Shown: positions 39,634 through 42,707 of the stretch, piece after piece
Position numbering within the stretch: position 1 is the first letter of the stretch
Layout of the letters: the number at the start of each line of letters is the position of its first letter
Source: Parapedobacter defluvii
GTDB taxonomy: Bacteria > Bacteroidota > Bacteroidia > Sphingobacteriales > Sphingobacteriaceae
Reading direction: 5' to 3'
NCBI RefSeq assembly: GCF_014642075.1
Contig: NZ_BMIK01000004.1
Span: 1-64,000, forward strand
DNA length: 64,000 bases
Position numbers and translations under genes: made by a program
Notes under the pieces: model-generated
What the model saw: the letters and a program-made list of their open reading frames with translations, nothing else
Told to the model about the DNA's origin: nothing
Database searches by the model: none

Positions 39634-40416
39634 TTACAATAAGTTTACAAACTCCCGGATTGCCTGCGCAGGATCTCCGGTTTTCATGAAATTTTCGCCA
39701 ATGAGGAATCCCTGGAAACCGGCTTGGCGTAACTGCCGGATCGTTTCCGGGTCACTGATACCGCTTTCCGACACCTTGATGAACCGGTCAGGGATCAAAT
39801 CCACCAGCTCCAACGAATGATCGAGCGACACCGAAAAATCTTTCAGATTACGGTTATTTACGCCGATGGCATCCACACTGTCCACCATACTGCGTTCCAA
39901 CTCTTCCCGGTTGTGTACCTCCAGCAGCACGTTCAGCCCCAGCGATTGCGCAAATTCGGATAGCGCTTGCACCTGCTTGGAGTCGAGCACAGCCGCAATC
40001 AGTAAAATGATGTCTGCCCCATGTGCCTTTGCTTCCACAAGCTGATATGCATCGATGATAAATTCCTTACGGAGCAGTGGAATATGCAACTCAGCACGCG
40101 CAGCCACCAGGTCATTCAGGCTTCCTCCGAAAAATTCCCGGTCTGTAAGCACAGATACGGCAGATGCCCCTGCTGCTTCATAACCGACAACAACCTCAGC
40201 TACCGATGAGCGATCGTTAATGATGCCTTTGGAAGGTGAGGCTCGCTTATATTCTGCGATAATGCCATTCCGTTCCGTATGATGGATTGAGTCGTGCAGC
40301 GACAGACACGATCGCTCAAACAGCGGCATCGCCTCCAGATTTGCAATCGTCGAAATCACTTTAGCCTGTTCGACTTCTACCTTTTTCTTAACAATGATTT
40401 TGTCTAGGATGGTCAT
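39634..40416 (-). CDS. trpC: Indole-3-glycerol phosphate synthase
   Basis: Fourth step of tryptophan synthesis, a 260-residue TIM barrel that decarboxylates and closes CdRP. Characteristic segments: EYKRASPSKG (catalytic Lys), VLTDREFFGGSLNDL, LLRKEFIID, EVHNREELE and GVNNRNLKDF, and ESGI near the end. The gene follows trpG by 26 bases, with no room for trpD (anthranilate phosphoribosyltransferase), which usually lies between them. Confidence 0.95.
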   Translation of the reverse strand: MTILDKIIVKKKVEVEQAKVISTIANLEAMPLFERSCLSLHDSIHHTERNGIIAEYKRASPSKGIINDRSSVAEVVVGYEAAGASAVSVLTDREFFGGSLNDLVAARAELHIPLLRKEFIIDAYQLVEAKAHGADIILLIAAVLDSKQVQALSEFAQSLGLNVLLEVHNREELERSMVDSVDAIGVNNRNLKDFSVSLDHSLELVDLIPDRFIKVSESGISDPETIRQLRQAGFQGFLIGENFMKTGDPAQAIREFVNLL

Positions 40417-40442: not shown

Positions 40443-41090
40443 TTATGTGATGCGTAAACTATGCGTATCCGCCTGATTCGTGTTATCTGCGTTCCATCGA
40501 GCCGTATCCAGCCAATTGGCAATCATTTCTCTTCCATGTTCGGTGAGCACGGATTCAGGATGAAATTGCAACCCTTTCACGTCCAACGTTTTGTGAGACA
40601 ATGCCATGATAACACCTTGTTCATCCTCGGCGGTAATGGAAAGGGAATCGGGAAACCCCTCGTGTGAAACCGCCCAGGAATGGTACCGCCCCACAGAAAA
40701 AGACAAAGGCAATCCGTTGAAAATCGGTTCTTCCGGATCTGTCACACGGATGGGCGTAGCCGTTCCATGCACGGGTCTCGCCAGGTTATAGAGCATACCC
40801 CCATATACTTCGGCAATGGCCTGCTGCCCCAAGCAAATGCCGAGGATACTTTTGGAGGCTCCATACGTGCGGATAACATCCAATAACAGCCCCGCTTCCG
40901 AAGGAATACCCGGCCCGGGCGACAGGAGAATCTTGTCAAAAGCGGCTACATCCGCCAGTGCAAACTTGTCATTGCGCCATACCGTAGCGTCATGTCCGCA
41001 CTCATGCAGGAGATGTACCAAATTGAACGTAAAGGAATCGTAGTTGTCTATCACCAAAATGCTGGGTGATGTGGTTTGCAAGCTGCTCAT
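40443..41090 (-). CDS. trpG: Anthranilate synthase component II (glutamine amidotransferase)
   Basis: A 215-residue class I glutamine amidotransferase that supplies ammonia to TrpE. The start VIDNYDSFTFNLVHLL is characteristic. Catalytic Cys in GICLGQQAI, His and Glu in LQFHPES. It could also serve aminodeoxychorismate synthase (pabA role), as often in bacteria with a single copy. It lies 7 bases downstream of trpE. Confidence 0.93.
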   Translation of the reverse strand: MSSLQTTSPSILVIDNYDSFTFNLVHLLHECGHDATVWRNDKFALADVAAFDKILLSPGPGIPSEAGLLLDVIRTYGASKSILGICLGQQAIAEVYGGMLYNLARPVHGTATPIRVTDPEEPIFNGLPLSFSVGRYHSWAVSHEGFPDSLSITAEDEQGVIMALSHKTLDVKGLQFHPESVLTEHGREMIANWLDTARWNADNTNQADTHSLRIT

Positions 41091-41097
41091 GTTTCTA

Positions 41098-42507
41098 TTA
41101 AATATCTTGTGCCAATTCCAATGCTTTGCGCAATGCGGCTATTTTGTTGTTTACTTCCTGACGCTCGGTTTCGGGATCGGAATCCGATACAATGCCTGCC
41201 CCTGCCTGATAATGCAGCGTGTTCTGACGGCTTAGAAACGATCGGATCATGATGGCGTGGTTAAAATCACCATTAAAACCCATATAACCGATGGCTCCGC
41301 TGTAAAAACTCCGCTGCTGATTTTCGTACCGGTCAATCAATTGCATGGCCATATGCTTGGGGGCACCGCTGAGCGTACCCGCGGGAAATGTATCGCCCAC
41401 TACATCGAAAGAATTAACCCCTTCTTTCAATGTTCCGCACACTTTCGATACCAAGTGGATGATGTGCGAGTAATACTGCGCCTCTTTGTACGACTTGACG
41501 TGCACTTGTTCACAATGCCGACTTAGATCGTTCCGCGCCAGATCTACCAGCATCACGTGCTCGGCACTTTCCTTGGGATCCGCTTTCAGCGCCTCGGCTA
41601 TTTTTTCATCCTGCTCCTGATTTCCGCTCCGTTTAAAGGTACCGGCAATCGGGTAGATGGTGGCTTCCTGTCTGCGGATGGTCAATTGGGCCTCGGGCGA
41701 GGAACCGAATAACTTGAAATCGCCGTAGTCAAAATAAAAGAGATAGGGAGACGGGTTGATCGACCGCAATGTGCGGTATACGTTGAACTCGTCACCCAGA
41801 AACGGACGGGAAAAACTCCGCGAGGGCACAATCTGGAAAACATCACCCCGGTAAATATGTGTTTTCATCGTTGCGACCAACGATTCAAACCCTTCGTCCG
41901 TCATATTGGACGTTTCCTCACCGTTGAGGGAAAAGCTATACTCCGGAAAATTCTTATTCTGGATCAGGTATTGCATTTTCTCCAGCCCCGATGGGCGCTC
42001 TTCGTCTTCGAGCTGATGCTCGAAAATGTAAAGCTGATTCCGGAAATGGTCAATGGCAATCACATACCGATAAACGTGGTATTGCAGATAGGGAATATCC
42101 CGGTTCGGATCGGGCGGACTCTTCAGCTCAATGTCCTCAAAATGGGCAACCGTATCAAACGTGAAAAAACCGAAAAGCCCATTGGAAATGAACCTGAAAT
42201 CCGTATCGCCCGCCTCTTGGAATGCATTTCGGAACCCCGACACCTCCTCCCGGAGATTGATCTCCGACGCTGGCTTCCGCTCAGGCTTGCCTTGGGGGTA
42301 TTGTATTTCGAGAAAATGCCTATCCAGTTTAATGCCCGCTATGGGTTCACAGCAAATGTAGCTCATGTTGTTTTCACGGCTATGATAATCCGAACTCTCC
42401 AACAGCAAACTGTTTGGAAATACATCCCTGAGCCGGAGATAAGTGCTTACCGGCGTAGTCGTGTCGGCCAGCAGCTGTTTGTACGTAGTTTTAAATCGAT
42501 ATGCCAT
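41098..42507 (-). CDS. trpE: Anthranilate synthase component I
   Basis: Makes anthranilate from chorismate with TrpG. The 469-residue protein has the N-terminal regulatory domain and a C-terminal chorismate-binding domain (about 190-465), with FKRSGNQEQDE, HVMLVDLARNDL, PAGTLSGAPK and YSGAIGYMGF. The tryptophan feedback element LLES-x10-S is intact (residues 35-38 and S49), so the enzyme is probably inhibited by Trp. The start is ATG 42507, 19 bases after an attenuator terminator. Trp would thus act at both the RNA and the enzyme level. Confidence 0.95.
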   Translation of the reverse strand: MAYRFKTTYKQLLADTTTPVSTYLRLRDVFPNSLLLESSDYHSRENNMSYICCEPIAGIKLDRHFLEIQYPQGKPERKPASEINLREEVSGFRNAFQEAGDTDFRFISNGLFGFFTFDTVAHFEDIELKSPPDPNRDIPYLQYHVYRYVIAIDHFRNQLYIFEHQLEDEERPSGLEKMQYLIQNKNFPEYSFSLNGEETSNMTDEGFESLVATMKTHIYRGDVFQIVPSRSFSRPFLGDEFNVYRTLRSINPSPYLFYFDYGDFKLFGSSPEAQLTIRRQEATIYPIAGTFKRSGNQEQDEKIAEALKADPKESAEHVMLVDLARNDLSRHCEQVHVKSYKEAQYYSHIIHLVSKVCGTLKEGVNSFDVVGDTFPAGTLSGAPKHMAMQLIDRYENQQRSFYSGAIGYMGFNGDFNHAIMIRSFLSRQNTLHYQAGAGIVSDSDPETERQEVNNKIAALRKALELAQDI

Positions 42508-42525
42508 ATCTTCACTTAATAACAC

Positions 42526-42560
42526 AAAAAAACCCGACGGATTTTTAAAAAACGTCGGGC
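42526..42560 (-). terminator. trp attenuator terminator
   Basis: On the minus strand CCCGACG (within 42547-42560) pairs with CGTCGGG (within 42533-42540), extendable by G-T and A-T pairs to 9 bp, followed by a run of seven T (42526-42532). It lies between the leader peptide and trpE and shares its 5' half with the antiterminator. Confidence 0.85.
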
Positions 42561-42624
42561 TAAATATTCCAAAGCCTTGGTTGATTAGGAATATATACTT
42601 GTTCCTACTGGCCCGACGTTTTTT
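42547..42624 (-). promoter_or_regulatory. trp antiterminator (competing stem)
   Basis: On the minus strand AAAAAACGTCGGGC (42611-42624) is perfectly complementary over 14 bp to GCCCGACGTTTTTT (42547-42560), the 5' half of the terminator. The two stems cannot form together. The first half lies within the leader-peptide coding region, directly after the Trp codons, so ribosome position can decide between them. Smaller hairpins (TAGGAA / TTCCTA and ATATTCC / GGAATAT) lie in the loop. Confidence 0.8.
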
Positions 42625-42671
42625 TCACCGAGCCACCACCATGCTACCGTGTGGAACTTATTCATCAACAT
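42585..42671 (-). CDS. trpL: trp leader peptide with three consecutive Trp codons
   Basis: A 28-codon frame: ATG at 42671-42669, stop TAA at 42587-42585. Codons 11-13 are TGG TGG TGG (42633-42641), giving Ala-Trp-Trp-Trp-Leu. Trp has one codon and is the rarest residue, so a triplet in a 28-residue leader is hard to explain otherwise. It lies between a good promoter and the trpE attenuator, like trpL of E. coli. ATG is only about 6 bases after the -7 element, so the mRNA may be leaderless; codon 3 is another ATG (42665) and an alternative start. Confidence 0.85.
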   Translation of the reverse strand: MLMNKFHTVAWWWLGEKNVGPVGTSIYS

Positions 42672-42677
42672 ACGAGA

Positions 42678-42707
42678 CAAAAATATAAAAAATATTGTGT
42701 AAACAAA
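42678..42707 (-). promoter_or_regulatory. trp operon promoter
   Basis: On the minus strand TTTG (42704-42707) and TATTTTTG (42678-42685) are separated by 18 bases and match the Bacteroidota -33/-7 promoter. Transcription should begin near 42672, right at the leader-peptide ATG. Confidence 0.75.

Follow-up and report, generated by a model that had tools for sequence, protein, structure and literature searches.

Introduction

The E. coli trp leader combines tandem Trp codons with RNA strands that pair as 1:2, 2:3 and 3:4, and attenuation of this kind requires a ribosome close behind RNA polymerase. Sinorhizobium meliloti carries a Trp attenuator of trpE(G) (trpL, rnTrpL) in a split trp pathway; the sections of PMC7298713 that deal with it place the start of the attenuated RNA at the trpL ATG and describe trpE(G) as the only one of three trp operons to be attenuated. 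A survey from 2010 states that, to its authors' knowledge, no leader-peptide system had been shown outside Proteobacteria and Actinobacteria (PMC2965389). For Bacteroidota, the Rfam family RF01692 (Bacteroid-trp, "Bacteroidete tryptophan peptide leader RNA") stems from Weinberg et al. 2010 (PMC2864571) and has been reported upstream of the Flavobacterium psychrophilum trp operon, where it was likened to the E. coli leader (PMC6414381). The amino-acid operons of the same species are said to give "strong clues" for leader-peptide attenuation, with 5′ elements at pheA and hisG (PMC9723704); these leaders belong to Flavobacteriaceae, and the portions of that paper at hand mention neither Sphingobacteriaceae nor paired attenuators. 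An earlier note on the DNA studied here, which took little to be known of trp attenuation in Bacteroidota, is corrected by both RF01692 and the F. psychrophilum reports. Among the matches listed in our literature search, with subscription journals mostly outside it, none treated paired Trp attenuators or trp attenuation in Sphingobacteriaceae, which is weak evidence that such work is absent.

Here we analyse a leader region ahead of trpEGC in a 64,000-nucleotide stretch of Parapedobacter defluvii DNA (the window). Judged from its sequence, the element is with a probability of roughly 0.92 a classical ribosome-mediated transcription attenuator, a reading already put forward in the earlier note and well supported by the conservation of Trp leaders and by the pairing tests described below.

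Results

Layout of the leader region

Between two promoter elements and trpE, the minus strand carries a leader frame with three consecutive Trp codons, followed by RNA strands that can pair in alternative ways and by a hairpin with a T run (Table 1); the genes that follow are trpE, trpG, trpC and then dusB. The promoter parts with their 18-base spacer, the 28-codon frame with its Trp codons and the 14-bp antiterminator are present just as the earlier note had read them. Of the terminator it described, the reuse of the antiterminator strand and the seven T hold, and the right arm, placed at 42533-42540, was one base off; trpE, said to lie 19 bases on, follows after 18.

Table 1 Features of the trp leader region and operon in the window, in the direction of transcription
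Feature	Position	Strand	Remark
-33 promoter element TTTG	42704..42707	-	Read from sequence; 18 bases ahead of the -7 element
-7 promoter element TATTTTTG (TAnnTTTG)	42678..42685	-	Read from sequence
Leader ORF MLMNKFHTVAWWWLGEKNVGPVGTSIYS	42585..42671	-	28 codons + TAA; ATG 42671-42669, TAA 42587-42585
Outer 1:2 helix, 5′ half GUUCC	42653..42657	-	Partner 42601-42605
TGG TGG TGG, leader codons 11-13, proposed sensing codons	42633..42641	-	
Strand 1 core UGGCUCGGUG	42626..42635	-	10 pairs with 42609-42618; 5′ end is the third Trp codon
Strand 2	42609..42624	-	42618-42609 with strand 1, 42624-42611 with strand 3
Outer 1:2 helix, 3′ half GGAAC	42601..42605	-	Partner 42653-42657
TCAACC block, between leader stop and strand 3	42579..42584	-	Recurs in relatives
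Strand 3	42547..42560	-	Antiterminator 3′ half, 42560-42547 in 14 contiguous pairs with 42624-42611; first 8 bases are the terminator 5′ half
Strand 4, terminator stem 3′ half	42532..42539	-	Pairs with 42560-42553; takes in the first T of the run, which makes the outermost pair, G-U
Run of seven T	42526..42532	-	Read from sequence
trpE, anthranilate synthase component I	41098..42507	-	NCBIfam TIGR00564 best model; ATG 42507-42505, 18 bases past the T run
trpG, anthranilate synthase amidotransferase subunit	40443..41090	-	TIGR00566 above cut-off
trpC, indole-3-glycerol phosphate synthase	39634..40416	-	NF001377 above cut-off

The trpE product scores 424 bits with TIGR00564, under the cut-off of 517.7, and is 96% identical to TrpE of P. 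indicus. Its tabulated ATG fits the genus, in which TrpE matches start at residue 1 of the ATG reading in all nine members. An in-frame GTG also occurs at 42525, directly after the T run and six codons before the ATG, from which the ORF would have 475 aa. The TTTG element stands 18 bases ahead of the -7 element in eight of the nine genus members, and none was found in the ninth.

The sequence and pairing features of an E. coli-type trp attenuator are present: a tandem-Trp leader ORF before trp genes, an intrinsic terminator between leader and trpE, a 2:3 antiterminator that excludes the terminator and a 1:2 protector stem that overlaps the Trp codons, the last being weak in part of the family. 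The window leader thus shares with E. coli the tandem Trp codons, the strand order and a similar length of the attenuated RNA, which would be expected here to end near 42526 and to measure ~145 nt. It differs in having three Trp codons in a 28-codon leader, in a strand 2 that lies wholly within the coding region and in an mRNA that is probably leaderless (see below).

Conservation and covariation among relatives

trpE was found in all nine Parapedobacter genomes and in 106 of 121 genomes of the family, and 60 upstream regions from the family were examined together with the window's own. A leader ORF with two Trp within four residues precedes trpE in 58 of these 61 regions (the exceptions are L056, L057 and L061), and a strict WW leader does so in 54, compared with 0/61 on the opposite strand and a mean of 0.45/61 after mononucleotide shuffling. 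Within the genus, the Trp run is WWW in eight members and WWR in the ninth. All 79 named Sphingobacteriaceae loci, a set that overlaps with the family genomes, likewise have a Trp leader before trpE (80 were taken and L139 was dropped for too little upstream sequence). A search at order level gave the same family only (81/81 with TrpE). The sample from outside the family consisted of 40 regions out of 103 genomes with a TrpE match (158 searched) and covered 26 of the 29 TrpE-carrying genomes at class level and 14 of the 68 more distant ones; a Trp leader is present in 36 of the 40, that is, in 26/26 from the same class and 10/14 from beyond it. The reverse-strand control of the looser W.?W test gave 8/119. 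As a separate observation, the TrpE match in one family genome (G014, contig C1, 1530093-1531223) is short and contains one TGA and one TAG.

The pairing partners were compared at two depths. In the alignment of the nine genus members, three of the five pairs of the outer 1:2 helix are altered on both sides and still paired, and the strand 1 core is paired with strand 2 in 86.7% of cells. Stems 1:2 and 3:4 jointly show four two-sided pair changes, a number that 2/500 shuffles reach; for 2:3 the genus gives no covariation beyond shuffles (its score was reached by 101/500). Across the family, seven of eight terminator pairs have a compensated two-sided change in at least one sequence, and RNAalifold on a MAFFT alignment recovered the terminator only. 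Because this alignment was ragged in 1:2 and 2:3, we used an alignment-free partner-swap test, in which the energy of a strand with its own partner is set against that with partners from other genera (57 leaders, 19 genera). The 57 leaders exclude L035, L056, L057 and L061, which have no leader within the set limits (L035 has a WW leader farther upstream), and presence of a terminator was a condition for entry.

Own partners were better throughout. For 1:2, permutations scored as low in 0/5000 cases for the whole stem, 5/5000 for its outer part and 27/5000 for its core; for 2:3 the figure was 2/5000, and for 3:4 it was 0/5000, a result that is partly circular because its arms had been picked for forming a hairpin. 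The counts for three mismatched controls were 698, 2919 and 367 of 5000. When partners were swapped within the genus, own and swapped partners were about equal for the whole 1:2 stem, for its core and for 2:3. The earlier note had looked to relatives for conserved Trp-run frames and covarying stems: the Trp leaders are indeed conserved and the outer 1:2 helix and 3:4 covary, and it is for 2:3 within the genus that the expected covariation failed to appear. Sequence and comparison together establish the leader, its Trp codons, the three alternative stems, their order and their conservation.

The TCAACC block recurs in 29 of 61 family regions, where shuffling gives a mean of 1.9, and in 59 of 79 named ones, with a shuffle mean of 2.6; regions from outside the family have it in 0/40 (26 class, 14 phylum). 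In the window's own genome, AATCAACCAA occurs 35 times, compared with 14 for the reversed pattern; of 30 places read, 20 lie inside frames of more than 300 bases, and the other 10 include the trp leader. No second amino-acid leader was seen by eye among these 10, and we rejected TCAACC as a general attenuator signal.

Folding and ensemble model of the trpE leader

The minimum free energy fold of the window leader pairs the strand 1 core with strand 2 in a stem that begins within the Trp codons, and the GUUCC/GGAAC helix encloses these codons. Compared with shuffled sequences, the fold of the whole leader is modest only (z -1.87), and that of the segment from behind strand 2 to the T run reaches z -2.71. 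By a hand count over the family, the z of the local 1:2 fold is at most -1 in 34 of 57 leaders, and in eight it is above zero.

In an ensemble model of the window leader, the free RNA forms the terminator with a probability, P(3:4), of 0.76. Placing a ribosome on the Trp codons, whichever of the three it is, brings P(3:4) down to 0.00; the value is 0.79 for a ribosome in transit, some six codons farther along, and 0.72 for one at the stop codon. The transit state agrees with the proposal in the earlier note that a moving ribosome masks strand 2, which holds in passing. Strand 2 ends 23 bases ahead of the leader stop codon, so that, going by the usual ribosome footprint, a ribosome resting there should not cover strand 2, and it would be the re-formation of 1:2 that frees strand 3. 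When strand 1 was masked, P(3:4) fell from 0.76 to 0.00 in the free RNA and from 0.72 to 0.00 with the ribosome at the stop codon. The suggestion that no clear 1:2 stem is needed and that the mechanism may differ is therefore contradicted for the window leader by the fold, by the covariation of the outer helix in the genus and by the loss of the terminator once strand 1 is hidden.

Before strand 4 exists, the equilibrium model has strand 3 of the window leader paired upstream at 0.99 even without a ribosome; termination would then need rearrangement or kinetics. In the models of the family leaders, stalling of the ribosome makes strand 3 pair upstream more in 40 cases out of 57 and less in one, and with the full transcript it shifts the mean P(3:4) little, from 0.90 to 0.79. 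A fall in P(3:4) of more than 0.1 on masking of strand 1 is limited to 12/57 leaders; with the ribosome at the stop codon, 6/57 show such a fall and one shows a rise.

Start of the leader mRNA

An exact TAnnTTTG lies 6-7 nt before the leader ATG in all nine genus members. Of 56 family leaders, 11 lack an exact copy within 60 nt; each of the other 45 has one at 3-10 nt, and in 32/56 a copy stands 6-7 nt from the AUG. The named loci agree, with an exact box in 69 of 76 and all 69 at 3-10 nt. The family set also has four copies of the motif ahead of the start codon of trpE, and these lie 17-26 nt from it. In Flavobacterium johnsoniae, the start site is given as 4-5 nt past the -7 box, and 87% of leaders are longer than 10 nt (PMC6847099, in part). 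Taken together, the 6-7 nt distance and the F. johnsoniae spacing predict a 5′ UTR of 1-2 nt, with transcription of the window leader predicted to start at 42673 or 42672, and the trpE leader mRNA is probably leaderless. As to how frequent such messages are, 5.5% of F. psychrophilum mRNAs are given as leaderless (PMC9723704), and a genome survey whose method is confined to promoters of the Pribnow-like kind reports leaderless genes in 1/37 Bacteroidetes/Chlorobi genomes (PMC3160421).

The short spacing is not general beyond the family: it was seen in 5/12 leaders of family f4, 5/14 from other families of the class and 1/9 from the rest of the phylum. For ordinary ORFs of at least 150 aa with a -7 motif within 100 nt, the spacing is short in 1/10 in the window, and in 6/12 in six Parapedobacter loci and 72/167 in 80 named loci, the latter two sets being homologous copies of one region.

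Relation to described RNA families

At gathering level, an Rfam scan of the whole window returned a tRNA at 155-222 only. A permissive scan of the trpE leader gave ten matches up to E 10, all far under the family cut-offs; neither the T-box model nor RF00513 (Trp_leader, cut-off 41 bits) nor RF01692 (cut-off 49 bits) was among the matches to the element up to E 10. Over 20 family trpE loci, RF01692 matched 0/20 up to E 1, and the best score of RF00513 was 33.1 bits (L021), below its cut-off. The element would act like RF01692 and E. coli trpL and, with no match to either model, is a member of neither Rfam family in its present form. RF01692 comes from the same phylum and precedes the same genes, with a WWW leader and then a terminator. 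Its matches among 198 phylum genomes number 17, every one from family f4 (probably Flavobacteriaceae), and the control genome of Bacteroides ihuae is matched in addition; a WWW leader stands upstream of trpE in 12/12 f4 regions, and all but one of the genomes they come from belong to the 17.

A second Trp leader ahead of trpD

In the window's own genome, trpD is found on a different contig (C2 of G000, about 295 kb), where frames that by eye read as trpF, trpB and trpA follow it; upstream of it stand a leader, MNFQTEHIIGWWHGS, and a terminator. None of the 49 family genomes with hits to both genes has trpE and trpD together: in 41 they are on different contigs, which in draft genomes is alone no proof of distance, and in eight a single contig carries both at a separation above 1.1 Mb (compared by eye). 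A W.?W leader precedes trpD in 38 of 41 family regions (the own region, L224, and 40 of the other 48, L228-L267; L234, cut by a contig end, is counted as a miss), compared with 4/41 in the reverse-strand control. RF01692 gives sub-threshold matches to trpD leaders in 9 of 20 sources, the best at 47.9 bits (cut-off 49), and no match to the own-genome trpD leader; by these sub-threshold matches, the trpD leader is closer to the model than the trpE leader is. An exact TAnnTTTG at 3-10 nt was found in 0/38 trpD leaders, which carry a CATATTTG-like box roughly 10-12 nt before the ATG (by eye). In the model of the own trpD leader, as long as strand 4 has yet to be transcribed, strand 3 pairs upstream at 0.24 without stalling and at 0.87 with it; in the full transcript the terminator stays at 0.97-0.98 despite stalling.

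Two genomes of one genus (G050 and G010) have no WW leader at trpE (L056, L057) or at trpD (L265, L266) and keep the terminators at both; this double absence is one concordant loss and not a statistic. We give even odds to the fuller picture of two unlinked attenuators, each with a structure of its own, kept or lost together and answering one signal, in which that of trpEGC is distinct, outside Rfam and leaderless, and that of trpD and its downstream genes is RF01692-like. In S. meliloti, as far as the cited sections of PMC7298713 go, the likeness to the window extends to a trpE(G) Trp attenuator in a split pathway; the difference is that in Sphingobacteriaceae trpD, too, has its own Trp leader.

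Discussion

From this arrangement of codons and strands we infer the transcription start of the trpE leader, its translation, stalling, termination and Trp response as follows. The leader would be translated once its AUG emerges from RNA polymerase. With charged tRNA-Trp scarce, the ribosome would stall on codons 11-13 and cover strand 1, leaving the core of strand 2 free, so that 2:3 could form as strand 3 emerges, the terminator would be blocked and trpEGC transcribed. With plentiful Trp, the ribosome would either be over strand 2 while strand 3 emerges or be gone, with 1:2 re-formed; strand 3 would pair with strand 4, and transcription would halt near 42526. Through the unlinked Trp leader of trpD, the remainder of the pathway would respond to this signal as well.

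Other uses of a Trp-rich leader and a hairpin must be weighed against this proposal. TnaC is an arrest peptide in which free Trp stalls the ribosome via the nascent chain, and a leader of that type, acting here through free Trp on the nascent chain, would bring induction at high and not at low Trp. A short Trp-containing leader ahead of a Trp-related gene would suit it, as would the H-T-x-x-WWW pattern that recurs in a number of family leaders. However, in some leaders, L047 and L063 among them, the bases of the H-T codons can be seen by eye to pair with a segment that lies behind strand 2, so the pattern may be one of RNA and not of peptide; moreover, the genes are biosynthetic and not catabolic, the residues past the Trp run vary, the position of the stop relative to strand 2 varies widely, and what recurs is the tandem Trp codons and strand 2. 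We consider such an arrest peptide highly improbable. Slighter still is the chance that the RNA senses uncharged tRNA or Trp directly, as a T-box or riboswitch for which the Trp-rich frame is incidental: a terminator with a competing antiterminator is what such an RNA would have, but the 10 matches up to E 10 from a search of 4227 Rfam families include neither kind, and the Trp run, conserved throughout the sampled part of the phylum, is placed a short way upstream of strand 2.

The start of trpE, 18 bases behind the T run, leaves room for a further scheme, in which the ribosome or the folds control re-initiation at trpE and the hairpin is no working terminator; that bacterial ribosomes may re-initiate after a leader frame has been proposed (PMC4833913). 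Against this, no part of the region is better conserved or better compensated than the hairpin and its T run, which lie between leader and trpE in 57 leaders, for which, it should be noted, a terminator was the condition of entry. Such translational gating is very unlikely, if the least improbable of these alternatives, and transcription attenuation by a ribosome stalled at Trp codons remains the preferred reading.

We regard the switch as real and ordinary in kind; its interest lies in the spread over the sampled phylum, the gap in Rfam, the twin attenuators and the probable leaderless start. Where a single Rfam model covers one family and a control genome in our sample, the Trp leaders take probable trp attenuation in Bacteroidota to nearly all regions sampled across the phylum, and a split trp pathway can retain one signal through a Trp leader on each part. 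Bacteroidota are, to our knowledge, a phylum without Shine-Dalgarno initiation; since attenuation needs a closely trailing ribosome, these leaders are ready reporters of transcription-translation coupling where Shine-Dalgarno sites are absent. Should their mRNAs indeed be leaderless, they would also offer a naturally occurring collection of such messages in which the use of leaderless starts can be measured.

A further amino-acid leader was noticed in the genus. In the own genome (L225, contig C18 of G000), no hairpin with a T run was seen by eye in the leader of hisG. A His-rich leader frame (e.g. MSAFFHHVHFHHRPCGE) stands upstream of hisG in all nine Parapedobacter genomes (L225 and L268-L275), and it is followed by a nearly invariant block, TGTATGTTTCTACGTGAAGCA, from which L274 differs in one base.
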